From assembly GCA_903887485.1 (NCBI GenBank), contig CAISPV010000049.1, forward strand, positions 1 to 61,100: 61,100 bases of DNA, written 5' to 3'. The position numbers and the translations under genes are program-made. Positions 28,184-48,900 of this stretch are shown piece after piece (within the stretch, counting starts at the first letter, position 1; every line of letters starts with the position of its first letter). The DNA comes from an uncultured Desulfobulbaceae bacterium (lineage in GTDB: Bacteria > Desulfobacterota > Desulfobulbia > Desulfobulbales > Desulfocapsaceae). The notes under the pieces were generated by a model. It was not told the DNA's origin and made no database searches. It saw only the letters and a program-made list of their open reading frames with translations.

Positions 28184-28453
28184 TTATCTCAACGGATCAA
28201 TCTTGAAAACAGGTTCACCGGCGACGGCCAATTTCCAGTCAGCCATCAGGTCTTCCTTGTGAATTTCAATCCATGCCTGTACCAGTTTCATCTTGGCTGG
28301 AGGCAGGCTGCCGCTTAGAATTTCTCCATCTTCAATAGCGATTGATGCTATGTGGTCTCCGTATTCCGCGTGAATGTGTGGACGAGCGTGCTTTTTGTTA
28401 TCATAAAAGTACATCAAGATAAGTATTCCATAAAACATTGATATCGTTGGCAT
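28184..28453 (-). CDS. DUF4160 domain protein
   Basis: The 89-residue protein has the DUF4160 core: MPTISMFYGILILMYFYD, HARPHIHAEYG and LPPAKMKLVQAWIEIH. The function is unknown. It forms a two-gene unit with the DUF2442 gene that follows. The 217 nt upstream hold no recognisable gene. Confidence 0.9.
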   Translation of the reverse strand: MPTISMFYGILILMYFYDNKKHARPHIHAEYGDHIASIAIEDGEILSGSLPPAKMKLVQAWIEIHKEDLMADWKLAVAGEPVFKIDPLR

Positions 28454-30957: not shown

Positions 30958-31057
30958 GGCAATATTTATTGGTTCAGACCGTTGGAATAAAATTACAGTA
31001 TTTTTAACCTCTTGCAGGTAAGCGAGTTCGCGAGACGCCGAAACTCTTCCCAATATG

Positions 31058-31928: not shown

Positions 31929-32542
31929 CTGGCGGTGAACAGGGACGCCGGGATCTCCTGATTAAGGACCCTGTTGGTGAAGGTAAGCCTGGTGGAGGAG
32001 TCGGGCCCTTCGAAAATCGTGACCGCATCAAGCAGACCGGCCTGATCGCCAAGTTTGAGCTCAATCGTGCTGATCAGAGCGGCAATCCCCTTATCTTTAG
32101 GGGTAAGCAGGATGGTCTTTTTATCCGGAAATGATACGGTGAACATGGCGTTGTCGGTAAAACGACCGTCAAGCCAGTTGGTGATCTCGGCCAGCACCAC
32201 CTGCATGGAGTCAAGCTGCATCCCCTTTTCTTCCGTAAGCTGGCCGTCGCGTTCGATGAATTTTTTCACCTTGCCGCCATGCATGAGCAGGATGGAGTGC
32301 AGAGGCTTCCGGTATTCCCAGCGCAGAGACTGCGGGGCCTGAAAGGTGAAGGTGCCGGTGGAGATGATGGGCCGGGCGAGGATCTTCAGGTGCTTTTCCT
32401 GGGTGAAATCGGCCTGGACCGAATGCAACTGGATTGGGGCCTGCGCCACTTGGCTTTCCTTGACCTGCGGGGCGGACTCTTCGGCTGAGGCTTGGACAGG
32501 CAGGAAAAACGTGAGGGTGAGAAGGAGGAAAAAACGTTTCAT
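31925..32542 (-). CDS. LolA-like outer membrane lipoprotein carrier
   Basis: The 205-residue protein has a signal peptide (FFLLLTLTFFLPVQASAE) and the LolA fold pattern: VQADFTQEKHLKILARPI, GTFTFQAPQSLRWEYRKP and the ILLTPKD segment. Unlike housekeeping LolA it sits in a biosynthetic operon, as in aryl polyene clusters, where it likely carries the lipid product across the periplasm. It overlaps fabG (TGATG) and the DUF3261 gene (ATGA). Confidence 0.88.
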   Translation of the reverse strand: MKRFFLLLTLTFFLPVQASAEESAPQVKESQVAQAPIQLHSVQADFTQEKHLKILARPIISTGTFTFQAPQSLRWEYRKPLHSILLMHGGKVKKFIERDGQLTEEKGMQLDSMQVVLAEITNWLDGRFTDNAMFTVSFPDKKTILLTPKDKGIAALISTIELKLGDQAGLLDAVTIFEGPDSSTRLTFTNRVLNQEIPASLFTAR

Positions 32543-33279
32543 CAGGACATCCCGCCGTTGACTGAGATCACCTGGCCGGTGACATAGGAGGCCGCATCGG
32601 AGCAGAGAAAGGCCACCACCTTGGCCACCTCGTCGGGCCTGCCGATCCGGTTCATGGGGATCATGGTCTTGATGTGGTCCTTGGGGGCGTCCTGGATCAT
32701 ATCGGTCTCGATCAGGCCGGGGGCGACTACGTTGACCCTGATCCCCATGCGGGCGACCTCGGCGGCGACGACCCTGCTGGCTGCGTTCAAACCGGCCTTG
32801 GCCGCCGAATAGTTGGCCTGGCCGCGGCTGATCATGAGCGAACTGACGGAGGAGACGGAGACAATGGCCCCCTGACGCTTGCGGACCATGAGTTCCAGCA
32901 CCGGCCGGGTCATATTGTAGAAACCGTTCAGGCTGGTATCAATGACCGACTGCCATTTTTCCGGGGGCATCATCATGAACAACCCGTCGGCGATGATCCC
33001 GGCATTGTTGACCAGGATGTCAATGGATCCCAGCCGGGCGCCGATTTCCGCCACAATGTTTTCCACGGCCTGTCCGTCGCGGACATCAAACTGACAGATC
33101 TCGCCCCGGCCGCATTCCCCTTCGATCATGGCCAGGGTCTGTTCGGCGCCCGCCTGGTCGCTGTGGTAGTTGATGACGATATGATATCCGGAGCGCGCCA
33201 GCTCCACGCAGACGGCGCGGCCGATGCCCTTGCTGCCGCCGGTGATCAGGGCGGTTTTCTGTTCATTTTCTGTTGTCAT
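32542..33279 (-). CDS. 3-oxoacyl-ACP reductase (FabG-like)
   Basis: The 245-residue short-chain dehydrogenase has the cofactor motif [13 protein letters not shown] near residue 90 and the catalytic Ser-Tyr-Lys (VSSVSSL ... ANYSAAKAG). It reduces 3-oxoacyl-ACP with NADPH. It is the only ketoreductase in the locus, so it probably serves all ketosynthases. It overlaps the dehydratase upstream by ATGA and the LolA-like gene downstream by TGATG. Confidence 0.93.
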
Positions 33280-33719
33280 TGCTCGCCCGCCTGAAAAAGT
33301 TGCAGGGTGGCCCTGCCGATTATCTGATTGTCCATTACAAGTTCACAGGAGACTTCCCGCAGATTTTCAAAACTATAGGTGTTTTCCGCTCTTGCCGTGA
33401 TAATGCTGCCGAAGGGCAGGGAATCGACAGTAAAATCGGCCTTTTTGATACCCACCAGCCAGCCCATCTGATTGGAGTCCCGTCCCTTGGTCTGGATCCG
33501 GTCCCAACCGTTGCAGACGCCGGCGGTCTGGGCGGCCAGCTCTACCAGAATCAGGGGATGCACCCCGTTCTCATCGGCCATCGGCCATGATTTATCGACA
33601 AGAAAAAGCGCGCGGGCAGTCTTGCTGTCAATCTCAAGGATCTCCTTGACCAGCAGCATGCGGTCGCGATGGGGGAGAAGGTCTTCGAGGGTGAGATCGG
33701 AGAGTGTTGTTGTGTCCAT
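33276..33719 (-). CDS. ApeP-like 3-hydroxyacyl-ACP dehydratase (hotdog)
   Basis: The 147-residue hotdog protein starts [18 protein letters not shown] and has [15 protein letters not shown], where the Glu is the probable catalytic residue. This is the pattern of ApeP/FabZ-like dehydratases from aryl polyene loci. It would convert 3-hydroxyacyl-ACP to the trans-2-enoyl form. It is the first gene of the leftward export operon and is divergent from ACP 3 across 221 nt. Confidence 0.85.
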
Positions 33720-33940: not shown

Positions 33941-34207
33941 ATGGATAAACTTACAGCAGAGCTTAAGGTCAAGATCATTGATATTCTCAATCTTCAAGAC
34001 CTGAGCCCGGAAGATTTTGACGAAAACGCCAGACTGGTCGGCGGCGATCTGGGCATTGACTCCATTGATGTTCTGGAGATGGTGGTCATGGTGGAAAAAG
34101 ACTATGGCGTTGTCATCAACAGCCAGGAAATCGGCGAGAAGGTCTTCTCTTCCCTTGCCGCCCTTGCTGGATATATCAAGGAAAACCTGCCCGGCTCATC
34201 AACCTGA
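33941..34207 (+). CDS. Acyl carrier protein (ACP 3)
   Basis: The 88-residue ACP has the phosphopantetheine site GIDSIDVLEMVV near residue 40. It is the first gene of the rightward operon and overlaps the KS-CLF fusion gene by one base (TGATG). That arrangement matches type II polyketide or aryl polyene systems, where ACP, KS and CLF are co-produced. It most likely serves the fused KS-CLF. Confidence 0.93.
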   Translation: MDKLTAELKVKIIDILNLQDLSPEDFDENARLVGGDLGIDSIDVLEMVVMVEKDYGVVINSQEIGEKVFSSLAALAGYIKENLPGSST

Positions 34208-36348
34208 TGGGGAATGGGGTGTACATTGCCGGGGCGGGTATTGTCAGTCCGCTTGGCGAGGGCCTTGCGGCGACAGTTGAGGCGCTGCGGGCCAATTGTT
34301 CGGCAATCAGGCCGCTGGAGCTCTTTCCGCTGCTGCAGGGAGAACCTTTGCCGGTGGGGCAGGTCCGGGGAGTGGACGCGCACTCGTTCCTGCCCAGAAC
34401 GCATTGTCTGGCCAGGATCGCCGCCATGCAGGCCATGGCCGGGTGTCATGAGCCGCCTGATGCCGTCATCCTGGGCACTACCACCGGCGGCATCCTGACC
34501 ACGGAACAGTTGCTCAGGGATAATGCGGAGAACAAGGAGCTGTACCGGTATCACGGATTAAACAGCGTCGCCGAGTATGTCGCCGGGGAGATCGGTTGCC
34601 GCGGCCCGGCCCTGGCGGTCTCCACCGCCTGTTCCTCAGGGGCGGTGGCCATTGCCATGGCCCTGGAAATGCTGCGCAGCGGCAAGGCGAAACGGGTTCT
34701 GGCCGGTGGCGTTGATTCCCTTTGCCGCCTGACCTATTTCGGGTTTCATTCCCTGCAACTGGTGGACAAAAAAGGTTGCCGACCCTTGGATGCGGACCGG
34801 CATGGGATGGCGGTGGCCGAAGGCGCGGCCATGCTGCTGCTGACTACCGAAAGGCCGGATAGTCCTCTGGCCGCACTCCTTGGCGCCGGGCTTTCCTGCG
34901 ATGCCTATCATCCGGCCGCGCCCCACCCTGAGGGCCGGGGCGCGCTCATGGCCATGCGGGCGGCCCTTGCTGATGCCGGTCTTGGCCCGGCGGATATCGA
35001 TTACATCAATCTGCACGGTACCGGCACGCCGGAAAACGATCTGGCCGAGTCCAAGGCTATCAGGACACTCTTTGCCACGCCACCTTCGCTTTCCTCTATT
35101 AAAGGGGCAACGGGCCATAGCCTAGCTGCCTCCGGCGCCATTGAGGCGGTGGTGGCAGCAATTGCTGTGTCCAAAAACTTTCTGCCTGCCAATACCGGTT
35201 GTCAGCATCCGGATCCGGCCCTGGGGCTTGCCCCGCTGACGCAGCCGGTCAGTCAGCCGGTAACGGCCGTGCTCAGCAATTCATTCGGCTTTGGCGGCAA
35301 CAACGGCTGTCTGGTGATCGGGGCCCCGGACCGGTGCCCGGTATCCGCATCTGCGCAAGTCCCTGCCGGACTGGCCGTTCATGGCAGCTCCTGCCTGACC
35401 GGCGCCGGCAACAGTGCCGCCACTCTGTCCCTGCTTACCCAGGGCGTCCCTGTTGCCGGCATGGCAAATCTTGATCGAATCTCGGCAAATCTGCCGCCGC
35501 GTCTGGTGCGCCGTTTGAAGCGGTTGCCGCGGATGACCTTGTCGCTGGCCATTGCTGCCCACGACGATTCCGGCCTTGAGGTAAAACCATCTGCCGTGTT
35601 TATGGGCACCGGCTGGGGCGCGCTCTCGGAAACCTATGATTTCCTGACCCGGCTTGCTGAATCGCAGGAGCAGTTTCCCAGTCCTACCGATTTTGTCGGC
35701 TCGGTGCATAACGGCCCGGCCGGTCAGGCGGCCATCATGTTCGGGGCCACCGGGGCCAATATTACCACCAGTGGCGGTGATTATTCGTTTGAGCAGGCGC
35801 TGCTGGCCGCCGATCTGATGATGAAGGAGGGGGATGCGAGCTGCCTGGTGCTCGGCGTTGATGAGGGCCATCAGGCGCTGTCTTCCCTGCTTGATCCCTC
35901 TATTGCCCCTGGAACTCTTCTGGCCGACGGCGGCGGCGCCCTGTGTCTGAGCAGAACCAGCAAGGGCGCGCAATGTCTTGTCCGGGTTCCGTTTTACCAG
36001 AGCAGCGCCCCAGAGGGGACTATGGATTTGCTGATCGAGGCCCTGGGCGGGTCTCAGGTCCTGAAGAGCAAATATGCGCTGGTGCTGGCAGGGATTCCGG
36101 CAGCGGTGCGGGAAGAGGGCGAAGCCCAGTTGGCACGCTTCAGGGAACAAACCGGATGTCAGGCCCCGGTGATCCGCTATCGTGAGTTGACCGGTGAGTT
36201 TGCCTCGGCCTCGGCCGTGGCCGCGGTCATGGCTGTTTCCTTGCTGGCTGAGCGGCAACCGCCGGCAGGAGGGGAAGATGGCAAGAAAGCCATCCTGGTG
36301 CTTGGCCTGGGACCATATCTTTCGGCCATCGAATTCTCCCGCCCATGA
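34207..36348 (+). CDS. Fused ketosynthase - chain length factor-like protein (KS B)
   Basis: The 713-residue protein joins two thiolase-fold units. Residues about 1-375 form a complete FabF-like ketosynthase with the Cys-His-His set (STACSSGAVAI, LHGTGTPEND, GATGHSLAASG). Residues about 390-700 resemble the beta-ketoacyl synthase N-terminal-like family (PF13723 style; GPAGQAAIMFGATGANITTS) and have no active-site Cys, as in chain length factors. In aryl polyene loci KS and CLF are separate proteins that pair. Overlaps with ACP 3 (TGATG) and rSAM 5 (ATGA) indicate tight coupling. Confidence 0.85.
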   Translation: MGNGVYIAGAGIVSPLGEGLAATVEALRANCSAIRPLELFPLLQGEPLPVGQVRGVDAHSFLPRTHCLARIAAMQAMAGCHEPPDAVILGTTTGGILTTEQLLRDNAENKELYRYHGLNSVAEYVAGEIGCRGPALAVSTACSSGAVAIAMALEMLRSGKAKRVLAGGVDSLCRLTYFGFHSLQLVDKKGCRPLDADRHGMAVAEGAAMLLLTTERPDSPLAALLGAGLSCDAYHPAAPHPEGRGALMAMRAALADAGLGPADIDYINLHGTGTPENDLAESKAIRTLFATPPSLSSIKGATGHSLAASGAIEAVVAAIAVSKNFLPANTGCQHPDPALGLAPLTQPVSQPVTAVLSNSFGFGGNNGCLVIGAPDRCPVSASAQVPAGLAVHGSSCLTGAGNSAATLSLLTQGVPVAGMANLDRISANLPPRLVRRLKRLPRMTLSLAIAAHDDSGLEVKPSAVFMGTGWGALSETYDFLTRLAESQEQFPSPTDFVGSVHNGPAGQAAIMFGATGANITTSGGDYSFEQALLAADLMMKEGDASCLVLGVDEGHQALSSLLDPSIAPGTLLADGGGALCLSRTSKGAQCLVRVPFYQSSAPEGTMDLLIEALGGSQVLKSKYALVLAGIPAAVREEGEAQLARFREQTGCQAPVIRYRELTGEFASASAVAAVMAVSLLAERQPPAGGEDGKKAILVLGLGPYLSAIEFSRP

Positions 36349-37691
36349 GAATCCTGCTTATCTCGCCCAATACCCTCACCGTTCCCTATCCGGTCTATCC
36401 CCTTGGCCTTGATTATGTGGCCGGCTCTATTGGTGCGGCGCATCAGGTCAGGATCGTGGACATGAATGTCCATTCGCTTGCGATTCTCGATGAGATTGTG
36501 CGGGATTTTTCTCCAGACATTATTGGCCTGTCCTGTCGCAACATCGACAACACCGAGGCCGGTGATCCCCTGTTTTTTATCAGTGAACACCGGAAGCTGG
36601 TGGTCTGGCTGCGGGAACGCTCAACCGCCACGCTGGTCTGTGGTGGCAGCGGTTTTACTATTATGCCGGATCGTGTGTTTGCGGCCCTGGGAGTGGATTA
36701 CGGGATCATCGGCGAGGGGGAGCGGTTTGGTCTGCTCGTGGATGCCATTGAGAACGGCAGAGAACCGGCGCAGATCCCCGGCGTCATCTCTGCTTGTTCT
36801 TCTCCCGAGACGCCCGAGCCCTGGACCGGGAAACAGGCGCGTAAATTTCAGCCTGATGCCTCCCATGTGGATTTTTATCTCAGGAATGGAGGGATGCTCA
36901 GTCTGCAGACCAAACGGGGCTGCTCCTTTCGCTGTATCTATTGCCCCTATCCCCATATTGAAGGGAAAAGGCATCGGCTGGTATCCCCCGATGAGGTGGC
37001 GAGGACGGCCATGGAGCTGCAGGAGGCCGGCGCAAAATATCTGTTTATCACGGACTCGGCCTTTAATTCGGATATGGCCCACAGTCTGGCCGTGGCCAAA
37101 GCCTTCAAGGCGGCCGGGGTTTTCATCCCCTGGGGCGGCTTTTTTGCCCCGCTCAGGCTGCCGGCCGATTATTTTTCCATCATGGCCGATGCCGGTCTCA
37201 AACATGTAGAATTCGGGACCGAGTCGATGTCGGCGGCCATGCTTGCAACCTACCGGAAACCATTCGGGGTCGATGATGTCTATGCTGCCCATAAGCAGGC
37301 CCGGGATGCCGGATTGCACGTGGCGCACTACTTTCTTCTGGGCGGCCCGGGGGAGTCGGCGGCCACGGTCGCGGAATCCCTTGACAACATCGAGCGACTC
37401 ACCAGGACGGCGCTGTTCTTTTTCATCGGCATCCGCATCTACCCCCATACCGCCCTCTATGACATCGCCCTTGAGGAGGGCAGGATAAGCCCTGCGACCG
37501 ATATGCTGGAGCCTGTCTTTTACCAGGCCGATGCCATCAATCGTGACGCCATTGAGACCCTGGTCACAGCCAGGGCGGGTAAACGAATGAACTGGATTGT
37601 CGGCTCCGGCGGCGACAGGAGCGCGGCCACGGTCAGGAAGCTCTATGACCGGGGGCATACCGGGCCGCTCTGGGAGTATCTTGCCCGATAA
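36345..37691 (+). CDS. B12-binding-type radical SAM protein (rSAM 5)
   Basis: The 448-residue protein has an N-terminal cobalamin-binding-like domain (LLISPNTLTVPYPVYPLGL, IIGLSCRNID) and the radical SAM motif CSFRCIYC near residue 195. Barrel motifs EFGTESM and FLLGGPGES follow. It belongs to the group annotated as lipid biosynthesis B12-binding radical SAM proteins. Its ATG overlaps the KS-CLF stop as ATGA, so it is directly coupled to chain synthesis, which favours an ACP-bound acyl substrate (inference). Confidence 0.9.
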   Translation: MRILLISPNTLTVPYPVYPLGLDYVAGSIGAAHQVRIVDMNVHSLAILDEIVRDFSPDIIGLSCRNIDNTEAGDPLFFISEHRKLVVWLRERSTATLVCGGSGFTIMPDRVFAALGVDYGIIGEGERFGLLVDAIENGREPAQIPGVISACSSPETPEPWTGKQARKFQPDASHVDFYLRNGGMLSLQTKRGCSFRCIYCPYPHIEGKRHRLVSPDEVARTAMELQEAGAKYLFITDSAFNSDMAHSLAVAKAFKAAGVFIPWGGFFAPLRLPADYFSIMADAGLKHVEFGTESMSAAMLATYRKPFGVDDVYAAHKQARDAGLHVAHYFLLGGPGESAATVAESLDNIERLTRTALFFFIGIRIYPHTALYDIALEEGRISPATDMLEPVFYQADAINRDAIETLVTARAGKRMNWIVGSGGDRSAATVRKLYDRGHTGPLWEYLAR

Positions 37692-37832: not shown

Positions 37833-38213
37833 TTGTGGTATTCATTTGTTGAAGTAATCCAACAGGAAAAGGATGAGATAACCGCCCGGGTGACAACGGA
37901 TGGCAGGTCTCCCTGGTTCTCCGGTCACTTTCCCGATAACCCGATCCTGCCGGGAATTGCCCAGTTAAAAATGGTTGCCGACATTATTGGCGCATCCAGG
38001 AAAGAAGACTTGCGGATGGCGGGTTTGAGCCGGGTCAAATTCAGAAAGATTGTCAGGCCTGGCGAGCTCCTTGATATTCACGCCACACCCGGCAAATTGA
38101 AAGATCAGTATGCGTTCCGGATAACCAGCAGTAATGAGGAGGTTTGTTCCGGTATGATGCGTCTTGCCGATAACAATACAGAAGAGACAGTTATGCCGTC
38201 TCAGATTTTATAG
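37833..38213 (+). CDS. ApeI/FabZ-like hotdog dehydratase
   Basis: The 126-residue hotdog protein has SGHFPDNPILPGIAQLKM, in which His fits the catalytic His of FabZ. The position of the usual Glu is taken by Lys (AQLKM), as far as a by-eye alignment allows. ApeI-type thioester dehydratases share the ILPGIAQL pattern. The start is uncertain: TTG at 37833 is the only in-frame start and has no clear ribosome site. The 141 nt between rSAM 5 and this gene hold no other reading frame I would support. Confidence 0.78.
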   Translation: MWYSFVEVIQQEKDEITARVTTDGRSPWFSGHFPDNPILPGIAQLKMVADIIGASRKEDLRMAGLSRVKFRKIVRPGELLDIHATPGKLKDQYAFRITSSNEEVCSGMMRLADNNTEETVMPSQIL

Positions 38214-38249: not shown

Positions 38250-38516
38250 ATGACCAACGACATTACTCAGACCGTTACCCGCATCGCTGAAATTATCATC
38301 AACGAGTTGAAGCTGGAAGATGTTACCCCCCAGACCTTTGACCCAGACCTTGATCTGGTGGACGAGGTGGGCATCGACTCCATGGATCTGGCGACCATTG
38401 CCCTGGTCCTGCGTGACGAATACGGGATCCGGATTGACGAAGATGATTATCCCAAGTTGACCACCGTGCGCATCATCGCCGAGTACATCAATACCAAGCT
38501 GACTAGTGGCGAATAA
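38250..38516 (+). CDS. Acyl carrier protein (ACP 4)
   Basis: The 88-residue ACP has the phosphopantetheine site GIDSMDLATIALV near residue 44. It is followed immediately (TAAATGA) by the first of two paralogous radical SAM genes. This contact suggests that the acyl chain on this ACP is what those enzymes act on (inference). Confidence 0.93.
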   Translation: MTNDITQTVTRIAEIIINELKLEDVTPQTFDPDLDLVDEVGIDSMDLATIALVLRDEYGIRIDEDDYPKLTTVRIIAEYINTKLTSGE

Positions 38517-39593
38517 ATGACTGCGCCGGTGCAGGGGTATAAATTCTCCGAGATCATAGCCGACCCGGTTATCCGGGAGAGATGGGAAAAGGTGCGCCGC
38601 TTTTTTTTCCTCCGCGAATCCACCTATGATATGAGCAACCGGTGTAATATCCGCTGTGAGGGTTGTTATTACTTTAACGGTGAAAAGCAGTTTGCCGAGG
38701 AAAAGAGGGACGCGGGAGCCTGGCGGCAGCTTCTGGCAGCGGAAAAGGCACGGGGCATCACCTTTGTCGTGCTGGCCGGGGCGGAACCTTCATTGGTCCC
38801 GGAGCTGTGTGAGGCCTGTTACGGGGTGATTCCCCTGGGAGCCATTGCCAGTAACGGCTTGATACCCATCAAGCGGGAGATAGATTACCGGATCCATCTC
38901 TCGGTCTGGGGCAACGACCAGACCAGTCTTGCCATCAGAAAGGCCCCGGACATGCTGGTCCGGCAGATAGCAAACTACAAGGATGATCCGAGGGCCGTCT
39001 TTGTCTATACCTTTACCCCGGTCAATATCGACGAGGCGAGGGAAGTGACGGAACTTCTGGCCCAGAATGGTATGAAGATCACCTTCAACATGTTTTCTTC
39101 TCCTGTCGGCTATACAGGGCCGCTTCGTCATACGGCGGAAACCCTTGCCGGAACGGAGCGAGTCATGACCGAACTGCTTGCCGAATTTCCGGAAACCGTT
39201 ATTTTCTCTCCCTACAATATCGTTGCCCATACCCGGCAGCAGGGGCTGCATGAGCTTTTTTCCTGTTCGTATCCCCGCATGAACCAATCCACGGATATTG
39301 GCCTTGGTCGGTCTTTTCGCCAGTATCGTACCAACTTGCAATGGGATCGTGATGCGGCCTGTTGTGTGCCGGATACTGATTGTGACGACTGCCGTCATTA
39401 CGCCGCCGGCAGCGCCGTGGTTACGGCCAGGATGTATCGTCACGCCACGGATCCGGTGACATTTGCCGCCTGGCTCGATTATGTTGACACCTATCTGGCG
39501 GTCTGGGTCAGAGGATATGACAAGGGCGTCAATCTCTGTGCCACGCCGGTTATTCCACCACTTAATAATGAGTCATTTCCCGAGAAACCATGA
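38517..39593 (+). CDS. Radical SAM protein (rSAM 6), paralogue of rSAM 7
   Basis: The 358-residue protein has the radical SAM motif CNIRCEGCYYF near residue 43 and no cobalamin-binding domain. Near the C-terminus CCVPDTDCDDC could hold an auxiliary Fe-S cluster. The first 60 residues align by eye with the next gene (TYDMSNRCN versus IYDVTDRCN), so the two are paralogues. The start ATG follows the ACP 4 stop directly and the stop overlaps the next start (ATGA). The pair may work as a heterodimer or catalyse successive steps. Confidence 0.88.
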   Translation: MTAPVQGYKFSEIIADPVIRERWEKVRRFFFLRESTYDMSNRCNIRCEGCYYFNGEKQFAEEKRDAGAWRQLLAAEKARGITFVVLAGAEPSLVPELCEACYGVIPLGAIASNGLIPIKREIDYRIHLSVWGNDQTSLAIRKAPDMLVRQIANYKDDPRAVFVYTFTPVNIDEAREVTELLAQNGMKITFNMFSSPVGYTGPLRHTAETLAGTERVMTELLAEFPETVIFSPYNIVAHTRQQGLHELFSCSYPRMNQSTDIGLGRSFRQYRTNLQWDRDAACCVPDTDCDDCRHYAAGSAVVTARMYRHATDPVTFAAWLDYVDTYLAVWVRGYDKGVNLCATPVIPPLNNESFPEKP

Positions 39594-40588
39594 AAACCGT
39601 TAGTTCCCTGCTTGATGATCATTGGTATGAGCGCTATAAAAAAATATCCAAGCTCAATATCCGCAGCTCCATCTATGATGTGACTGATCGCTGCAACCTT
39701 CGCTGTAAAGGCTGCTTCTTTTTTTCCTCGAATGAGCACAAGGCGGCGTCTGAAGAAAAGGATGTCAGCAAGTGGTATGATTTTGTGGATAAGGAGATGG
39801 AACGCGGGGTAAACCTGGCTATCTTGATCGGCGGCGAACCCACCCTCTGTCTGGACCGGATTGAGGCCTTTTACCAGCGACTGCCCACCTTCTGCGCCAC
39901 CAATGGCCTGATCAAGGTGCCCCGGGACCGGTTTCCTGACATGATGGTCGGCCTCTCCCTGTGGGGTGATGTCGAGGACGAAATAACCCTGCGCGGCCAG
40001 GATACCTTTAAGATCTCCAGCGCTAACTACGAGGGTGATCCCCACGCCTATTATCTCTATACCATCACCCCCAAGCAACTGGGCAAGACCGAGCAGATCA
40101 TCAAGAAGATTGAAGGGGTTGGGCTGAAGGTGCACATGCAGCTCCTGTCCAATGACGAGGCGGTGGACGGTTTTTCCTGGCAATCGGAGGAACTGGTGGC
40201 GGTGCGGGCGGAGATGGATGCGATGCTCGATGCCTACCCCAAGACCGTGATTTCCTCGAAATATTATCACGAAGTTATCACCACCGGAAAAATGCTGGGT
40301 CGACGGTTCGGCTGGATGGAGTGCCCGTCGGTGACAGATGCCATTGACAAGCGGGAGCCCAGACCCAAGCGGCTGACCAATTTCATCCGTTGGGCATCGG
40401 ATCTCAAGACCATGCACCGCTGCTGTACCTCGGAGACCCGTGACTGCTCCACCTGCAAAGACGGCGCGGCCCACATGAGCTGGGTCATGGTCAACAAGCG
40501 GGCGCACATGGAGAACACCAGGGATCTGCAGAACTGGATCGAAGTGTACGAAATGTTTGCCAAACTTTACCAGTTCATCCCTTGGTGA
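39590..40588 (+). CDS. Radical SAM protein (rSAM 7), paralogue of rSAM 6
   Basis: The 332-residue protein has the radical SAM motif CNLRCKGCFFF near residue 37, GGEPTLC and a C-terminal Cys group (CCTSETRDCSTC) like that of rSAM 6. It has no cobalamin-binding domain. It is translationally coupled to rSAM 6. Downstream an AT-rich inverted repeat fills the gap before the next ketosynthase. Confidence 0.88.
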   Translation: MKTVSSLLDDHWYERYKKISKLNIRSSIYDVTDRCNLRCKGCFFFSSNEHKAASEEKDVSKWYDFVDKEMERGVNLAILIGGEPTLCLDRIEAFYQRLPTFCATNGLIKVPRDRFPDMMVGLSLWGDVEDEITLRGQDTFKISSANYEGDPHAYYLYTITPKQLGKTEQIIKKIEGVGLKVHMQLLSNDEAVDGFSWQSEELVAVRAEMDAMLDAYPKTVISSKYYHEVITTGKMLGRRFGWMECPSVTDAIDKREPRPKRLTNFIRWASDLKTMHRCCTSETRDCSTCKDGAAHMSWVMVNKRAHMENTRDLQNWIEVYEMFAKLYQFIPW

Positions 40589-40592
40589 AATG

Positions 40593-40680
40593 AATTACGA
40601 ATTACGAATGAGGAATTACGCTCTGAGAGAGCAGCAACGTTATTATCCAATTCGTCATTCGTAATTTTTAATTCGTAATT
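40593..40680. repeat. AATTACG inverted repeat directly before KS C
   Basis: The left arm AATTACGAATTACGAATGA (40593-40611) faces the right arm TCATTCGTAATTTTTAATTC... (40655-40680). The right arm ends in the base next to the KS C start codon, so the repeat takes up the place where a ribosome site should be. Similar AATTACGAATT repeats are known from many genomes. Confidence 0.8.
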
Positions 40681-41931
40681 ATGTCCTTAAAAGACGCAGT
40701 CATTGTCGGGTATGATGCCATCTCCCCACTGGGGAATGATCTGGAAGGCCAATGGCAGCAGGCCCTGTCCGGAAAAAGCGGTATCGGCCCGCTGACCCGT
40801 TTTCCCCTCAGCGATGATTTCCCGGTCAGGATTGCTGGTCAGGTTCCCTCCATCGACCATCTCGACTATCCCTTTCTTTCTGCCAGACACCAGGCGGCCT
40901 GGAGCTCTCCGGTCTTCAAATACTCGATGCTCACGGTGGCCAGGGCCCTGGCGCGAAGCGGCTTGGTGATCACTCCCGACATTGCCTCCCGGGTGGCTGT
41001 GACCTACAGCTCGGCCATCGGCGGCCTGGATGCGGTGCTAGCCGCCGACAGAAGGATGCGGAGTGAAAACAAACTGCCCCCCCCGTATGCCAATCCCAAT
41101 TCCTGCATCAACATGATCGGCGGCAAGATTGCCATCCAGACCGGGGCCAGGGGTCCGATCACCTCCACCATCTCCGCCTGCGCCACCGGTCTGACCTCAA
41201 TGATTATCGGCGCCATGTTTTTGAAGCAGAACAGGGCCGATATCGCCATCTGCGGGGCGGTTGATTTTGCCCTGGTGGAGCCGATCGTGGCCGGTTTTTA
41301 TACCATGAACGGGGTTTATACCCCCAAAGAGGGGCGGGAAAACGAACCGCCGGAGTCAGCCAGCCGGCCATTTTCCTCCAATCGGCGGGGCTTTGTCCTC
41401 TCGGAAGGGGCCGGGGCGGTGATCCTTGCCACCCGTGAATTTGCTGAAGCGCACGGCCTGCCATATCATTGTGAACTGGCCGGTTGGGGCATGACCTCGG
41501 ATGCCCATCACTTTGTTGCCCCTTATCTGGAGACGGTCAAACAGTGCATGCTCGATGCCCTGAGCGATGCCGCCATCGCTCCGCAGGATATCGATGTCGT
41601 CAATGGTCATGCTGCTTCCACCCGGGTCGGCGATCAGGTGGAATTTGCTGCGCTGCAGGCGGTCTTTGGCGACGATCTGCCGCCGATCTGTGCCAATAAG
41701 TCGCTGATCGGACATGCCATGGGCGCCTCCAGTGTTATTGAAACCATCTTCGCCCTGCAGGGGATGGAGGAGGGTATTGTGCCGCCCACCATTAATTACA
41801 CCCCAGATCCGGAGATCGAGATCGACTGCGTGAGCGAAGGGAAACGGTTGTTGAGGCAAGAATTTATTTTAAAAAACGCCTTTGGCTTCGGCGGTTGCAA
41901 TGCCTGCGCTGTATTTAAAAAAGCAGGCTGA
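40681..41931 (+). CDS. FabF-like beta-ketoacyl-ACP synthase (KS C)
   Basis: The 416-residue condensing enzyme has Cys in SACATGLTSM (about residue 170), His in VNGHAASTRVGD and His in SLIGHAMGASS. It is a complete KS II-type enzyme. Its ATG abuts an inverted repeat and lacks a visible Shine-Dalgarno, so translation may be weak or depend on RNA structure. The last codons (KKAG) run into a heptamer repeat. A second ketosynthase follows. Confidence 0.92.
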   Translation: MSLKDAVIVGYDAISPLGNDLEGQWQQALSGKSGIGPLTRFPLSDDFPVRIAGQVPSIDHLDYPFLSARHQAAWSSPVFKYSMLTVARALARSGLVITPDIASRVAVTYSSAIGGLDAVLAADRRMRSENKLPPPYANPNSCINMIGGKIAIQTGARGPITSTISACATGLTSMIIGAMFLKQNRADIAICGAVDFALVEPIVAGFYTMNGVYTPKEGRENEPPESASRPFSSNRRGFVLSEGAGAVILATREFAEAHGLPYHCELAGWGMTSDAHHFVAPYLETVKQCMLDALSDAAIAPQDIDVVNGHAASTRVGDQVEFAALQAVFGDDLPPICANKSLIGHAMGASSVIETIFALQGMEEGIVPPTINYTPDPEIEIDCVSEGKRLLRQEFILKNAFGFGGCNACAVFKKAG

Positions 41932-41954: not shown

Positions 41955-42076
41955 ATTTCAGGTGAGGGGAATGGCTGTGGAGCTTGTTGTCTGTCTTGCT
42001 TTTACGCAGATGGTTCTTCGGTTTATTTATCTGAGTGGTTAAAAAGAATGCAACTTTTACAATTATCACCAACAAT

Positions 42077-43342
42077 ATGAAGGCGCCGCTGAACAGAAAG
42101 GTCTTTGTCGTTGGCTATGGGGCGGCCACCTCTCTTGGCAACACATTTGCCACCACCTGGGAGGCTGCTCTGGCCGGCCGGGCCGGTTTTCGCCGGATAA
42201 CCAGGTGCGAGGTCCTTACCCGCAGCAACGTGGTGGGTGAGATCCCGGACTGGGATCCGGGCCTGCTGGAATACGTGAACCGCAAGGATGCCTCGCTCTG
42301 GGATGCCGCCTTTGTTTTTCTCACCATGGAGGTCTGCCGCCAGGCCCTGGCCAATGCCGGGCTTGAAATCGACAGTGAAACCGGCCCGAGGACCGGCTGT
42401 CTGATCGGTTCCGCCCTCAATGGCGTCGATGCGTACCGGATTGCCATGGACAACTATGTCAACCGGGGGCCCCTGAAGGTCAGCCCCTATCTGCTGCCCA
42501 ATCTGTGTGCCAATCTCCCGGCGGGCAAGGCCGGAATGCTGCTGGGATTTACCGGCCCCGTCTTCTCACCCCAGGGCGCTTGCGCTTCCGGCAATCACGC
42601 TATTGCCCTTGGATCCCGGATGATCAGGGATGGCGACTGCGATTTTGTCCTGGCCGGAGGCGTTGAGACCTGTCTGGTGCCGGAGATCATCCAGGGTTTT
42701 GCCAACATGCTGGCCACCATCAAGGTCGGGCCTAACGATCGCGCCTTTGATGATCCCACCCAGGCGTCACGGCCGTTCAGCATCGACCGCAAGGGTTTTG
42801 TTCTCTCGGAAGGTGCCGGGGTGGTGGTGCTGGCGGCTGAAGAGGCCGTCCGTTCGCTGAATCTCACCGCCAGGGCCGAGGTGGCCGGCATCGGCTGGAA
42901 CTCGGATGCCAATCATTTTACCCGGCCCAACCAGGAGACCATTGTCCGGGCCATGCGTGCGGCTATTGAGGATGCAGAGATTACGCCTGTGGACATCGGC
43001 GCGATTAACGCCCATGGCACCTCGACCCCCACTGGTGACAGCACCGAGGTTTCCTGCCTTCGAGAGGTCTTTGGCCATGGGCTGCCCAAGATTCCAGTGT
43101 CGGCTAACAAGTCGCAGGTGGGCCACAGTCTGGGCGCCAGTGCGGCTATTGAGGCGGCCCTGGCTATCGAGGCCATGGGCCAAGGGATTGTCTTGCCCAC
43201 GGTCAACCATATCCCTGACCCTGCGTTCAGCGACCTGGATGTGGTTCCCAATCAGGCCCGCAAGCACCCGCATGAATTTGTGCTCTCCAATTCATTCGGC
43301 TTTGGCGGCACCAACTGCTGTCTTGTTTTTCGAGGAATGTGA
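42077..43342 (+). CDS. FabF-like beta-ketoacyl-ACP synthase (KS D)
   Basis: The 421-residue condensing enzyme has Cys in QGACASGNHAI (about residue 173), His in INAHGTSTPTGD and His in SQVGHSLGASA. It is complete. I chose ATG at 42077; a GTG at 42035 would add 14 residues with no family character. It overlaps the thioesterase gene (TGATG), so the product of this ketosynthase may pass to the thioesterase or dehydratase encoded next. Confidence 0.92.
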   Translation: MKAPLNRKVFVVGYGAATSLGNTFATTWEAALAGRAGFRRITRCEVLTRSNVVGEIPDWDPGLLEYVNRKDASLWDAAFVFLTMEVCRQALANAGLEIDSETGPRTGCLIGSALNGVDAYRIAMDNYVNRGPLKVSPYLLPNLCANLPAGKAGMLLGFTGPVFSPQGACASGNHAIALGSRMIRDGDCDFVLAGGVETCLVPEIIQGFANMLATIKVGPNDRAFDDPTQASRPFSIDRKGFVLSEGAGVVVLAAEEAVRSLNLTARAEVAGIGWNSDANHFTRPNQETIVRAMRAAIEDAEITPVDIGAINAHGTSTPTGDSTEVSCLREVFGHGLPKIPVSANKSQVGHSLGASAAIEAALAIEAMGQGIVLPTVNHIPDPAFSDLDVVPNQARKHPHEFVLSNSFGFGGTNCCLVFRGM

Positions 43343-43821
43343 TGCGACCCAAACCCTTTATCCCGGAATTTCTGGACAAACCCTCTCTGGTCAGGGACAA
43401 GAACAGCGGTAAGATCTGGCATCGCTGCGAGCTGCGCACCCTCTATGTGGATACGGACCGCTCGCAGGTCGTCTATCATGCCAACTACCTGAGATATTTT
43501 GAATTCGGCCGGGGCTCGCTCATGCGTGATGCCGCGTATCCGTATAAAAAGATTGAAGAAAGCGGTTATGTTTATCCCATTATCAAGACCGAGCTCAACT
43601 ATTATTCGCCACTCTTCTATGATGACTTAATGTACATTCATACCCGGCCGGCCACCATCGAACTGGTCAAATTGCAGTTTGATTATCTGATTACCAAAGC
43701 CGACACCGGCGAAATCGCCTGCACTGGTTTTACCAAACATTGCGCCGTGAATACCAAGGGCATTCCGGTTGAGATTGATGCCAAGACCATCCAGCTTTGG
43801 CAGGAATTTCCCGGTTTATGA
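43342..43821 (+). CDS. YbgC/4-hydroxybenzoyl-CoA-type acyl thioesterase (hotdog)
   Basis: The 159-residue hotdog protein has YVDTDRSQVVYHANYLRYFE near residue 35, including the Asp of the YbgC active-site pattern. Such enzymes hydrolyse acyl-CoA or acyl-ACP; thioesterases of this type occur in aryl polyene loci. ATG at 43342 overlaps the KS D stop. The stop overlaps the next ATG as ATGA. It could release or edit chains. Confidence 0.87.
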   Translation: MRPKPFIPEFLDKPSLVRDKNSGKIWHRCELRTLYVDTDRSQVVYHANYLRYFEFGRGSLMRDAAYPYKKIEESGYVYPIIKTELNYYSPLFYDDLMYIHTRPATIELVKLQFDYLITKADTGEIACTGFTKHCAVNTKGIPVEIDAKTIQLWQEFPGL

Positions 43822-44672
43822 CCGTTATGACCACCTGGCGGACTCCTGTTGCCATTGACGTCCGTCCCTGGTTTGCCGATCACTGTTTTGACGGTAAAGT
43901 CGTGCTGCCGGCGGTGGAAACCATGACGCTGCTGGCGGCAGAGGTTGCCGGGAACCATCCGGAAATCGATGTCCGGGTCATGAATAATGTCCGTTTTGCC
44001 AGGTTTCTGGAAATTCCTGTAGGAAGCAGCAGTGTTGCGGCTCTCATTGAATGCAGTCAGCATGAAAACGGCTCGATTCATGGCAAACTGCTCAGCCGGA
44101 GGCCGTGCAAGACCATGACGCGGCTGCAGGAGCATGGCGAGATCCTCTTTTCCCCGGCCGGAGAAGATCATAATTCTGTCTTCGGGTTTGCCCCTGAACC
44201 CCTTGTTGATCCTGAAATGACGATTCCGGCAGAGCAGGTGTACCGGGAACTGGTACCTTTTGGTCCAAGTTATCATACCCTGCAGGAAACCTTGCATCTC
44301 TGCGGGCAGGAAGCATGGGGCAGGTTGAAGGCTCCCGTGTTAGGTGTCCAAGACAGGGCTCGGGAACTTCTCGGCTCCCCTTTTCCTCTGGATGGCGCTT
44401 TTCATGCGGCCTGTGTTCTGGGTCAGCGGTCAACAGATTTTGTACCCTTTCCCGTGGGATTTGATCGGCGGATCATCCTCAGGCCCACGCAGCCCGGCGG
44501 CAGCTATCGTACCAAGGTGCAACTGCTCTCCCGGACCCGCGATGAACTGCTCTTTGATCTGCACATTTTTGACGATCAGGGACAGATTTTTGAGAGTGTC
44601 ACCGGGGTGCGGATGCGGGATGTGAGCGGCGGGAAGATCAAACCGCCGGAGTGGATGCGTGATAAAAATTAA
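43818..44672 (+). CDS. Polyketide synthase-type dehydratase (double hotdog)
   Basis: The 284-residue protein has the PKS dehydratase catalytic pair: His in DHCFDGKVVLPAVE near residue 20, and Asp in PLDGAFHAA near residue 190. The length fits a stand-alone double-hotdog DH domain. It would dehydrate 3-hydroxyacyl-ACP in a polyene chain. ATG at 43818 overlaps the thioesterase stop. The gene ends the coupled KS D-TE-DH unit. Confidence 0.87.
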   Translation: MTVMTTWRTPVAIDVRPWFADHCFDGKVVLPAVETMTLLAAEVAGNHPEIDVRVMNNVRFARFLEIPVGSSSVAALIECSQHENGSIHGKLLSRRPCKTMTRLQEHGEILFSPAGEDHNSVFGFAPEPLVDPEMTIPAEQVYRELVPFGPSYHTLQETLHLCGQEAWGRLKAPVLGVQDRARELLGSPFPLDGAFHAACVLGQRSTDFVPFPVGFDRRIILRPTQPGGSYRTKVQLLSRTRDELLFDLHIFDDQGQIFESVTGVRMRDVSGGKIKPPEWMRDKN

Positions 44673-45187: not shown

Positions 45188-45901
45188 ATGAACCTGCCTG
45201 ACCCCTGGAATTTTTTTGATACCATCTACTGCATCTCTGTTGATGATCGCCTTGACCGGCGCGAGCAGGTGAAGAGGCAGTTTGCGGCTGTGGGGCTGCT
45301 GCAACGGGTGGAGTTTGTTCTGGTCGCCAGGCACCCTGAAAACAGGGAACAAGGCATCTTTGAATCGCATATGCTGTGCCTGAAAAGGGCGCTTATGGCT
45401 GGAGCGCAGCATATCCTGATTTTTGAGGATGATGTCTTCTTTCGTGACTTTGATTCCCGCGCCCTTGCCGAGGCCTGTGCGCATCTCGAGCGTCTTGAAA
45501 CCTGGAACAGTCTGTTTCTTGGCGGCATTACCAGCGGCAGTCGTCAGACCGAGGTGAAATCTTTGGTCAGAATCAAATACCGTTGTCTGTCCCATGCCTA
45601 CGCCCTCAATGCTCCTATGGCCCGCCGGATTGTCCGGGAAGAGTGGAGCGGAATCCCCTATGACGGGCTGCTGCGGCAAAAGAATGGTGATTGTTTCGCC
45701 ATCTATCCCATGTGCGCCTTTCAGGGGCTTTCCGAAAGCGACAATCAAACCGTGGCCATCGACAGAGTACGCCGGTTGTTTGGCGGACTCCCGTTTATCC
45801 AGAAGATGAACGAGATTTATCAGAATCATAAGGTGCTTATCCTCGCCGCGCACCTGGCGGTCTTTCTTGTGCTTGGTGTTTTGGCCTATAGGTTGTGGTA
45901 A
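45188..45901 (+). CDS. Glycosyltransferase family 25-like protein with C-terminal membrane segment
   Basis: The 237-residue protein has a GT25-like start (IYCISVDDRLDRREQVKRQF), SHMLCLKRAL and the metal-binding-type IFEDDVFF. GT25 enzymes add sugars to lipooligosaccharide. A hydrophobic C-terminus (VLILAAHLAVFLVLGVLAY) would anchor it in the membrane, which is unusual for the family. It lies 4 nt before the MMPL gene and probably decorates the lipid product or its anchor before export (inference). Confidence 0.8.
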   Translation: MNLPDPWNFFDTIYCISVDDRLDRREQVKRQFAAVGLLQRVEFVLVARHPENREQGIFESHMLCLKRALMAGAQHILIFEDDVFFRDFDSRALAEACAHLERLETWNSLFLGGITSGSRQTEVKSLVRIKYRCLSHAYALNAPMARRIVREEWSGIPYDGLLRQKNGDCFAIYPMCAFQGLSESDNQTVAIDRVRRLFGGLPFIQKMNEIYQNHKVLILAAHLAVFLVLGVLAYRLW

Positions 45902-45905
45902 AATA

Positions 45906-48900
45906 ATGATTAATTATCGCCTTCTCTTCTTTGTTTCCCTCCTGATTATCGGCTGCGCCGTTGTCGGCAAGATGCGTCTTGATATTGACACGGATATGGC
46001 CCGCTCTCTGCCGGCCAGCGAACGGGTCATTGCCGATGCCCTGGAGATCTTTAATCATCATCCCATTCACGATCAGGTCGCAGTCGATATCACGATCAAC
46101 GGTGATGATCAGGATACCTTGGTGGAGTGCGGTGTCTTTCTTGAACAGAAGATGAAAGACAGCGGACTTTTTGCCCAAGTTGGCACCAATGCCATAGGCG
46201 AGCTGATTCCGCGCCTTGCCTTGCATGTGGCTCGGAACCTGCCTCTTCTCTTTTCCAGTGAAGATCTTCAGAAGATCGCCCCCCTTCTTGATTCAGGGCG
46301 AATCAAGGAACGGATACACAAGCTCCATGAGGATCTGGGCAGTCTGGAGGGAGTTGGTCAGGCCGAGTTTATCGGCGTGGATCCCCTGGGGTTGAAGGAC
46401 CTGATCCTGGCGAAGATGGCCCTGCTGGCCCCTTCGATGAATGCCGGATTTTATAAAGGACATCTGCTCTCCGGGGATGGCCGTCATCTCCTGGTCACGG
46501 GCAGGCCGCTGGCGGCAGGAAGCAATACCGCCTCAGCCCGCTCCCTTTCTGATTTTTTCGGGCAGACAGCGCAAGAGATTGCCAAACACTTTGAAGCCAA
46601 AGGTGTGCAGGCAACCCTGACCCCGGTGGGGGCCTATCGGGCGGCCCTTGATAATGAAAGCATGATCCGTCATGATGTGCAGTTTGCGCTTACTCTGTCA
46701 ACGGCAGGTATCGCCTTGCTTCTGTTTTTGTCCTTTTCCCGGCCCCTGATCGGGCTTATGTCTCTGGTTCCGTCCTTTGCCGGTACGGCCGCCGCCCTTC
46801 TTGTCTATTCCTTGTTTCACTCCTCCATCTCGATCATGGTGCTTGGGTTTGGCGGGGCCCTTATCTCCATCACCGTGGATTACGGTATCGCCTATCTCCT
46901 TTTTCTTGACCGGCCCCATGCAACCAGGGGCAAAGAGGCTGCGCATGAAGTGCGGGCCGTCGGGATCATGGCCGTGGCGACGACCGTTGCCGCCTTTCTG
47001 GTCCTCCGGTTCAGCGGGTTTCCGGTCTTTACCGAACTCGGTTTGTTCTCGGCCCTGGGCGTCCTTTTTTCCTTTCTCTTTGTAAATACTGTTTTTCCAA
47101 AAATCTTCCCGAATATGCCTGCCGGCAAAGTCCGCAATCTGCCCCTGCAGAATTTTGTCAATATCCTCTATACTACCGGCAAGCCAGGCGCCATTGCTGC
47201 GGCTTTGCTGGTCTGCGTCCTGATCTTTTTTGCCAAACCGCAATTTCATGTCGGTTTAGACAGCATGAACACGGTCAGTCAGGCCACCAAGACGGCTGAT
47301 GCCGTGTTCACCAAGGTCTGGGGGAAGATCGGCGATCGGATTTTTGTGATGAACAGAGATGAGACCATTGCCGCTATTCAGCGGCGCAATGATCTCTCCT
47401 TGGCCCGGATAGAAGAGGATGAGCGGAAAGATATCCTGGCTGCGGCCTTTGTCCCGTCGATGATCTTTCCGGGCCAGGAACGGGGGGCCGAGAATGTAGC
47501 CGCCTGGCAGGCCTTCTGGGACAGGAGCAGGGTGGAACAGGTGAAAAAGGCACTGGGCGGTACGGGCGCCGAGCTTGGTTTTACCCCGGATGCCTTCGCC
47601 CCTTTTTTCGCGTTGTTTGAGCCCGGATTTGCGGCCCAATCCCTGGAGATTCCCAAAGAGTTCTACGAGTTGCTGGGGATTTCCAAGAATACGCGTGAGT
47701 CCGGCCTGATCCAGTTCATCACCGTTACGCCGGGTAAAAACTATGATGGCGCCGCCTTTCTCGCCCGTTATGGTGGGGACAGTAAGATCTTTGATTCCGC
47801 TTTTTTTGGGGAGCGACTGGCTAAACTCCTGTTTTCCACCTTTACCTCCATGCTGGCGATCATTGCCGTTAGTGTGGCCGCACTCCTCTTTTTTGTCAAT
47901 TTGAACCTGCCGCTAACGCTTCTGACCCTAATGCCGTCCGTTTTTGCCTATATCTGCACCCTGGGAACCATGAAACTCCTCGGTCGTTCCCTGGATATTC
48001 CCGCTCTGATGTTGTTATCCATCTCCATACTCGGCATGGGGATCGACTATGCCATTTTCTGTGTGCGGGCCCATCAGCGCTACCGGGATATCTCTCACCC
48101 ATCGTACGCCCAGATGCGCAGCAGTGTCTTTCTCTCCGCCACTTCCACCTTGATCGCCTTCGGTGTCCTTTGTTTTGCCGAACACAGCCTGTTGCAAAGT
48201 ATCGGTATTGTCTCCCTGCTCGGCATCGGGTACTCCCTGCTCGGGACCTTCCTGCTGCTGCCCCCGTTGCTGGATCGCTACTTTTCCGGGAAAGACAGCA
48301 GGGTGATTACAGGTCTTATTCCCCGTATTCGCAGCCGTTTCCGCACGGTTGAGGCCTATCCCCGGATGTTCGCCCGCTGCAAGCTGCATCTTGATCCTCT
48401 GTTTGCTGACCTGCCGAGGATGCTGGCTGCCAAAAAGGAGATCAAAACCATTGTTGATATTGGCTGCGGCTATGGAATTCCTGCCTGCTGGTGTCTGGAG
48501 ACCTATAAAGAGGCGCGGATTGCCGCCATCGAACCTGATCCGGAAAGGGTGCGGATTGCCGGTCTTGCCCTGGGGGCGCGGGGAACCGTCACCCAGGGGT
48601 GGGCGCCGGACATGCCGGACTTGGCGGGTGATCCGGCTGATGTGGTGTTATTGCTGGATATGCTGCATTATGTGGATGATGAGATCGCGGCGTCTGTCTT
48701 TAGGGAGAGTTTTCAGATGCTTGCCCCTGGTGGACTGCTGGTGGCAAGATGCACCATTTGTCCGTCCGGCAGACCGTCATGGTCCTGGTGGTTTGAGAAG
48801 ACGCGCATAAAGCTATCGGGCAATGAGGCCTGGTACCGGTCTCCTGAAGAAATGGCAGGACTTCTGACCAAGGCCGGTTTTACCGTGATCATCAATGAGG

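Follow-up and report, generated by a model that had tools for sequence, protein, structure and literature searches.

An acyl carrier protein and two related radical SAM enzymes form a recurring gene module in an aryl-polyene-like cluster of a Desulfobulbaceae bacterium

Introduction

What do two related radical S-adenosylmethionine (SAM) enzymes do when they are encoded directly behind an acyl carrier protein (ACP) of their own? The question is raised by a stretch of 61,100 nucleotides (hereafter, the window) from an uncultured Desulfobulbaceae bacterium (GenBank assembly GCA_903887485.1, contig CAISPV010000049.1), in which the genes for ACP4, rSAM6 and rSAM7 follow one another. Two related radical SAM enzymes in one pathway are familiar from CofG/CofH, MqnE/MqnC and NirJ1/NirJ2; to our knowledge, none of these employs an ACP. 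No rSAM-rSAM-ACP pair of this kind was found described in the literature searched, which covers few of the subscription journals. Here, we confirm the pair, show that it is conserved and find no name for it in the libraries searched, and we propose that it belongs to an anaerobic, aryl polyene (APE)-like pathway for an outer-membrane lipid, in which ACP4, rSAM6 and rSAM7 would be the O2-independent heart of the module that modifies acyl-ACP. We give this proposal about an even chance.

Results

The gene triplet and its recurrence

All three genes lie on the plus strand. ACP4 (38250-38516) is a dedicated ACP of 88 amino acids with a GIDSMD site, and it scores 39.2 bits against PF00550 (cut-off 20.8). 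It is followed by two Twitch-like radical SAM enzymes, rSAM6 (38517-39593, 358 amino acids, with CNIRCEGC and CC-x5-C-x2-C) and rSAM7 (39590-40588, 332 amino acids, with CNLRCKGC and CC-x6-C-x2-C). The initial annotation had reported these genes joined by TAAATGA and ATGA, and the list of open reading frames (ORFs) and the window sequence agree with it: the ACP4 stop codon TAA abuts the ATG of rSAM6, and rSAM6 overlaps rSAM7 in ATGA. Its description of the enzymes was also accurate, with CN(I/L)RC(E/K)GC followed by aromatic residues, a C-terminal CC group with further cysteines, and no B12-binding domain (Pfam gives no PF02310 match in either). In full, the motifs read CNIRCEGC-YY and CC-VPDTD-C-DD-C in rSAM6, and CNLRCKGC-FF and CC-TSETRD-C-ST-C in rSAM7; a G[GA]EP motif is present in both, and 34 or 42 residues precede the radical SAM motif in the two enzymes.

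The arrangement recurs widely. When 84,980 species genomes were scanned, 314 relatives of rSAM7 came up, and the best 80, ranked against one distant orthologue (L056), were kept; these loci come from Desulfobacterota, from deposits labelled Deltaproteobacteria or just bacterium, from Spirochaetes and from one member of the Planctomycetota. In 78 of the 80 loci, rSAM6 is found upstream of rSAM7, the other two loci (L080 and L124) being cut at the contig end; in L134, a ketosynthase (KS) gene separates rSAM6 from rSAM7. The gap between the two genes is -4 bp in the window and L078 and 0 to 682 bp elsewhere, apart from L134 (2336 bp), and the translational overlaps are not conserved. Within 600 bp upstream of rSAM6, an ACP4 homologue occurs in 57 of 69 testable loci, and ACP4 is nearer to the window than ACP3, a second carrier protein of the cluster, in all 31 loci with both. 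Downstream of rSAM7, testable loci contain a KS (61/67), a second KS (54/59; either KS was accepted in both counts), a thioesterase (52/59) and a polyketide synthase (PKS)-type dehydratase (47/51). Among the cluster proteins compared, rSAM7 has the top median identity (79.8% over 80 loci), identities being to the window only and covering differing numbers of loci per protein. The initial annotation had considered that homologues might occur mostly as single genes without an ACP, or fall into a named peptide-modifying family; instead, the ACP-rSAM-rSAM order was found elsewhere, and neither of those outcomes was seen.

In the bacterium's own family, rSAM7 found matches at E <= 1e-8 in 49 of 93 genomes, among them G030, which matches only through an rSAM6 truncated at the contig end. 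The phylum sample gave matches in 31 of 395 genomes, 28 of which were counted as clear orthologues and three as distant (G110, G262 and G476), with up to five candidates scored per genome here and in the Planctomycetota and phylum-wide PRK09258 scans described below.

Family assignment, motifs and predicted fold

No NCBIfam or Pfam cut-off was reached by either enzyme, which bears out the earlier statement that no named family covers the pair. Pfam Radical_SAM matched weakly (21.8 bits for rSAM6 and 25.3 bits for rSAM7, both below the gathering score of 29.5). At E <= 0.1, NCBIfam returned 20 families for rSAM6 (best 24.1 bits, cut-off 400) and 48 for rSAM7 (best 33.9 bits, cut-off 490), and the cut-offs unmet by the pair include those of viperin, MoaA, NirJ, HpnH, maturases of ribosomally synthesized and post-translationally modified peptides (RiPPs) and other named radical SAM families.

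Both enzymes have intact motifs. Two alignments that mix rSAM6 and rSAM7 (68 and 56 sequences) show no variation at any of the three radical SAM cysteines or at the Gly that precedes the last of them; Gly and Glu in GxE, Ser, Trp and Gly in SxWG, and five cysteines of the C-terminal part are likewise invariant. The CxxxCxxC cysteines are present in 81 of 81 rSAM7 rows and 73 of 79 rSAM6 rows, and the remaining six rSAM6 rows are ORFs of 155-300 amino acids cut by the contig start. C278, C279, C286 and C289 are kept in every row of the alignment, and the fifth cysteine (C245/C250), invariant in both mixed alignments, falls in another column of this alignment for rSAM6. Judged by these residues, neither rSAM6 nor rSAM7 is a degenerate partner, and each probably has a compact, one-cluster Twitch-like auxiliary site with one cysteine to spare.

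The AlphaFold2 models (pLDDT 90.9 and pTM 0.90 for rSAM7; 85.7 and 0.88 for rSAM6) were compared with known folds by Foldseek and VIA-align. Both show a partial triosephosphate isomerase (TIM)-barrel radical SAM fold with a C-terminal extension and come nearest to SkfB, with other radical SAM proteins scoring close behind. For rSAM7, the match to SkfB (Z 17.5, root mean square deviation (rmsd) 4.2, 241 residues aligned) is followed by BlsE (Z 17.4), SuiB (16.7), anSME (16.3) and a viperin-like protein (15.8); for rSAM6, SkfB (Z 18.6, rmsd 4.7, 239 aligned) is followed by viperin (Z 18.5), BlsE (18.2), SuiB (17.7) and anSME (16.7). SkfB was also the best hit when the sequences of solved structures were searched, although all matches were weak and lay mostly in the radical SAM core.

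By fold and motif, we therefore file the pair as SPASM/Twitch-type radical SAM enzymes with a putative auxiliary cluster. The partial barrel and CxxxCxxC are common to the pair, to SkfB, anSME and BtrN, and to the fold neighbours BlsE and viperin, and the C-terminal cysteine group could hold one auxiliary cluster as in SPASM/Twitch enzymes. SkfB has an aromatic residue in CxxxCxPhiC, according to the available text of PMC6231123, whereas the pair differs from SPASM/Twitch enzymes in having Gly at the aromatic position (CxGC) and the aromatic residue after it. The pair also has S-x-W-G where SkfB has S-I-D-G, and its C-terminal cysteine spacing is unlike that of SkfB, with five invariant cysteines in both enzymes. 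Compared with SPASM/Twitch enzymes in general, it has a compact CC..C..C group with an extra upstream cysteine and a short N-terminus, and no curated family fits. With SkfB and SuiB among the nearest folds, RiPP maturation by a SPASM/Twitch pair comes into view, but no NCBIfam maturase cut-off was reached and the recurring setting is one of ACP, KS, dehydratase and thioesterase. Neither enzyme has a Pfam match to a peptide-recognition domain, no search having been made for precursor peptides. Peptide maturation is, in our judgement, barely credible.

Ancestry and single-gene relatives

In trees, rSAM6 and rSAM7 form two separate clades (support 99/99 and 99/96 in a first tree, in which the bootstrap was unsettled; 100/99 for both in a second, for which the program warned of long branches at deep joins). 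Because rSAM6 groups with single genes of Methylomagnum and of G110 (100/99), and not with rSAM7, the two appear to descend from an old split and to have been kept together, rather than from a local tandem duplication. The paralogous pair of the initial annotation is to be read in this corrected sense; the two proteins are 29% identical.

Single-gene relatives were also sought on plasmids, where both queries returned the same 15 records with one place each at 26-35% identity, and five of these were opened. The Methylomagnum relative lies in the order ACP, TauD-like dioxygenase, rSAM and nonribosomal peptide synthetase (NRPS). On a Burkholderia stagnalis plasmid, the rSAM gene stands between that of a protein whose name refers to phenylacetic acid catabolism, here taken as a diiron protein, and that of a PaaI thioesterase. 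Near this diiron-rSAM-thioesterase trio (L173 11958-21643), a halogenase, an adenylation protein, carrier proteins and an acyl-homoserine lactone synthase were observed; the carrier proteins, adenylation protein and halogenase are on the strand opposite to the trio. A cassette of diiron-type protein, rSAM and MaoC is found on an Alteromonas plasmid (L174 19180-21535) and on an Enterobacter hormaechei IncC plasmid (L177 7180-9535); the two copies have the same three protein accessions, and Tn3- and IS21-type genes lie near the IncC copy. A Tistrella record, which is unannotated, has a diiron-protein-like ORF, judged by eye, after the rSAM gene. The relative follows another radical SAM gene in four Planctomycetota genomes (4/4 tested), and an LplA-like gene is nearby in both of the two loci tested among these four. 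At L143 (3816-10525), a single rSAM6-like gene lies behind matches to impB/mucB/samB and DNA polymerase III alpha, an odd setting.

A carrier- or thioester-bound substrate is likely, because these relatives adjoin ACP or NRPS genes, hotdog-fold thioester enzymes or lipoyl-ligase-like genes. The ACP-bound substrate suggested in the initial annotation is favoured by the module itself and by those relatives that have carrier proteins or thioester enzymes as neighbours, and would be the best supported step of our proposal after gene order.

An aryl-polyene-like cluster

The cluster spans approximately 21.9-49.9 kb of the window, and its central module reads dehydratase-ACP4-rSAM6-rSAM7-KS-KS-thioesterase-dehydratase (scores below are followed by their cut-offs in brackets where these are given). 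On the plus strand, the module starts with an ApeI/FabZ-like hotdog dehydratase (37833-38213; PF07977, 28.7 bits (23); PF22818, 28.6 bits (28.5)). Downstream of rSAM7, it continues with two FabF-like KSs (40681-41931 and 42035-43342), each with the Cys and two His motifs, a 4HBT-type thioesterase with a presumed ApeK-like role (43339-43821; PF13279; TIGR00051, 81.5 bits (68.7)) and a PKS-type double-hotdog dehydratase (43797-44672; PF14765, 43.7 bits (23.7)). The same strand carries ACP3 (33941-34207; PF00550, 34.9 bits), a KS fused to a second KS-like half (34207-36348), a B12-binding radical SAM protein of TIGR04072, rSAM_ladder_B12 (36345-37691; 376.7 bits (360); PF02310 found), and an MMPL exporter fused to a methyltransferase in one ORF (45867-48977; PF03176, 45.7 bits; PF13489, 49.2 bits). 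No active-site Cys motif was found in the second half of the fused KS, which is probably an ApeO-ApeC-like KS-chain length factor (KS-CLF).

The minus strand encodes a FabG-like ketoreductase with an ApeP-like dehydratase (32542-33719; PF13561, 220.1 bits; PF22817, 32.7 bits (27)), a LolA-like carrier (31925-32542; NF053544, 112.5 bits, below the cut-off of 125) and a second, unnamed B12-binding radical SAM protein (29692-31053; PF02310 at the gathering score, below every NCBIfam cut-off). A lipid A-type acyltransferase, a glycosyltransferase 2, a DegV/DAK2 fatty-acid-kinase-like protein and an AMP-ligase occupy 21926-26596. No enoyl reductase was found among the cluster genes examined. Three side observations concern this region: the second B12-binding radical SAM protein is strongly conserved, with a median identity of 75.1% in 30 loci and a minimum of 22.4%; a DhiT/DUF4160 toxin-like gene (28184-28453, minus strand; 103.9 bits, cut-off 100) lies inside the lipid cluster region; and the gap between rSAM7 and the next KS (40593-40680) holds an imperfect inverted repeat of AATTACG units. 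The window's genome shows a related pattern in three places, and the repeat is perhaps a small mobile or palindromic element.

Taken as a whole, the cluster unites an APE set of KS-CLF, KS, ketoreductase, two dehydratases, ACPs, ligase, thioesterase, LolA-like protein and MMPL exporter. Our comparison is based on the E. coli ape gene table in the available part of PMC8253772, much of which is matched here, and on the KS roles given in that of PMC8358021. The likeness extends over the ACPs, the KS-CLF (fused here), a further KS, ApeI- and ApeP-like dehydratases, an ApeQ-like ketoreductase, an ApeH-like ligase, an ApeK-like thioesterase, LolA- and MMPL-like proteins, a methyltransferase, and acyl- and glycosyltransferases; no ApeA-, ApeG- or ApeN-like gene was recognised in the window cluster. 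Unlike APE clusters, it also encodes two B12-type radical SAM enzymes besides rSAM6 and rSAM7, and the E. coli ape paper as available (PMC8253772) does not use the word 'radical' in its main text. The account in the initial annotation was therefore right about the triplet, but left out the APE-like setting and the nearby TIGR04072 gene.

APE pathways begin with an aryl unit that is loaded onto ACP by ApeH, according to the same available text (PMC8253772). On ACP4, the pair might accordingly make or rearrange a small starter, be it aromatic, cyclic or derived from an amino acid, leaving the long chain untouched, and the KS pair would then hand this starter to the polyene synthase. The AMP-ligase of the cluster and the position of the Methylomagnum relative, between ACP plus dioxygenase and NRPS, speak for such a role, and two KSs with one ACP may resemble an initiation module. 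However, the AMP-ligase lies in the minus-strand half of the cluster and is only moderately conserved, with a median identity of 42% in the 18 loci where it was found, a PhzF-family gene (26691-27470) that might touch aromatic precursors has no match in the 80 loci, and the genes examined showed no further enzyme for aromatic precursors. We regard a starter-forming role as possible but doubtful.

Ladderanes and polyunsaturated hydrocarbons

TIGR04072, the family of the gene at 36345-37691, is titled 'lipid biosynthesis B12-binding/radical SAM protein'. TIGR04072 genes of 345-402 bits, the class of the window's gene, occur in 29 genomes of the bacterium's own family; 27 of these have rSAM7, and G030, with its truncated rSAM6, is one of the two that remain. 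Genes scoring 566-629 bits make up a second class, found in 18 own-family genomes, seven of which have the pair. The rows left unclassed are nine with 282-319 bits and a partial one with 242 bits; they include the pair genomes G002, G026 and G031, the last being a piece at a contig edge.

Ladderane chemistry has to be considered at this point. According to the available text of Rattray 2009, clusters of type II fatty acid synthesis (FASII) genes with radical SAM genes in Kuenenia and Desulfotalea psychrophila were tied to ladderanes or polyunsaturated hydrocarbons (PMC2649909), and Kuenenia genes were tested in E. coli without success (Javidpour 2016, PMC4790861, as available). These clusters resemble the one studied here in their FASII genes, radical SAM enzymes and membrane protein and in the TIGR04072 gene present here; unlike them, the window has no phytoene-desaturase-like gene among those examined. 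If the pair performed ladderane-type ring closure, it would build concatenated cyclobutanes, and the passing of TIGR04072 by the gene at 36345-37691 near the pair would fit this role. By their numbering, kuste3342 and kuste3343 are neighbouring Kuenenia radical SAM candidates (PMC4790861, available text).

However, none of 19 Planctomycetota genomes taken for anammox bacteria has an rSAM6 or rSAM7 orthologue, a difference from the ladderane clusters that argues against ladderane chemistry. The anammox label was inferred: PF18582 matched 59 of 343 Planctomycetota genomes, and the rule applied to these asked for a hydrazine-synthase ORF of 809-844 amino acids and no more than two matches. Of the 59, 19 passed this rule, 20 were not judged and the rest failed. 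Among all 343 genomes, the pair occurs in one (G484). Eighteen of the 19 have distant radical SAM matches of 37-65 bits and the remaining one has none, and the distant genes placed in the trees (five in the first, three in the second) fall far outside the pair clades. As an observation apart, the distant radical SAM gene at L151-L165 encodes 327-353 amino acids; six rows were seen, each with CNLRC[KR]HC, and the 19 genomes taken for anammox bacteria include 12 of the 15 that carry this gene. We rejected a ladderane role for the pair and consider it highly improbable.

The window's genome also carries a PRK09258 gene, presumably of the OleA family (L142 8678-9721, G000:C56), which scores 432.9 bits (cut-off 285), and none of 14 control genomes has one over the cut-off. 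After Rattray 2009, one could imagine that the cluster makes polyunsaturated chains in anaerobes and that these are joined head to head by OleA to give C31:8 and C31:9 hydrocarbons, the pair helping to install or process double bonds. D. psychrophila, with Kuenenia-like FASII clusters that include radical SAM genes, has C31:8 and C31:9 hydrocarbons and not ladderanes, according to the available text (PMC2649909). However, PRK09258 is near universal in the window's own family, both with the pair (48 of 49 genomes) and without it (40 of 44); the phylum sample has it in 13 of 28 rSAM7-orthologue genomes vs 31 of 367 others. Its co-occurrence, showing no specific association with the pair, was dropped as an argument for a hydrocarbon product, which we consider improbable. 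Because the pair is absent from the inferred anammox genomes and PRK09258 does not track it, neither a ladderane nor a hydrocarbon product is required by the pair.

Discussion

We return to the proposal of an anaerobic, APE-like pathway with acyl-ACP modification at its heart. The KS, ketoreductase and dehydratase enzymes would produce an unsaturated acyl chain, this chain or its starter would sit on ACP4, and rSAM6 and rSAM7 would act on it there, either in sequence or as a complex. Each enzyme would use its own SAM-cleaving cluster together with the compact Twitch-type auxiliary cluster predicted from its cysteines; a 5'-deoxyadenosyl radical would abstract hydrogen from the chain, the electron left behind would most likely pass to the auxiliary cluster, and the product would gain a further C=C or a ring with no need for O2. 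Transfer of this product to a lipid would follow, by way of the thioesterase and the acyl and glycosyl transferases, and the LolA- and MMPL-like proteins would export the lipid. The reaction would be an oxidation, desaturation or ring closure of acyl-ACP, and we lean towards oxidation, with a C=C or a ring as its outcome, because of the auxiliary-cluster enzymes and the oxygen-free polyene setting. An oxidising role of auxiliary clusters has been suggested for anSME and BtrN (PMC6231123, available text).

Several points weigh against this proposal. The data favour oxidation no more than they do an epimerisation, a cleavage or the making of a C-C or C-S bond, and both AlphaFold2 models are least confident near the C-terminal cysteines. 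Twelve of the 69 testable loci have no upstream ACP4 homologue (L059, L060, L061, L063-L066, L079, L081, L089, L107 and L138), and 13 of 48 own-family rSAM7 genomes have no TIGR04072 match at E <= 1e-60. Among the relatives, no ACP appears in the listed annotations of the Alteromonas cassette, for which the annotation table is incomplete, and the G110 relative has an unrelated setting beside DNA polymerase genes. Most of the relatives' settings would fit thioester- or carrier-bound substrates, but that of G110 does not.

rSAM6 and rSAM7 may act sequentially or as the heterodimer considered in the initial annotation. Their distance matrices correlate at r = 0.65, and because this value lies within the range of all cluster pairs compared (0.53-0.87), the correlation is uninformative on a complex; being no higher than for other cluster genes, it was dropped as evidence for one. 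A stronger version of our proposal would make rSAM6, rSAM7 and their single-gene relatives an undescribed family of carrier-protein-dependent Twitch-like enzymes, in which the pair, as an obligate heterodimer, desaturates or cyclises ACP4-bound chains of strict anaerobes to give a polyene membrane lipid without O2. We offer this version only tentatively and think it unlikely to hold in full.

'Ladderane'-annotated clusters have been reported in many non-anammox phyla, with their function given as unknown (PMC9902471, as available). One well-conserved type among them is now set apart from anammox, and it points to radical SAM chemistry on acyl-ACP. If our proposal is true, acyl chains would be modified during their assembly in an O2-independent manner, and the widespread aryl-polyene pathway would have a version particular to anaerobes.

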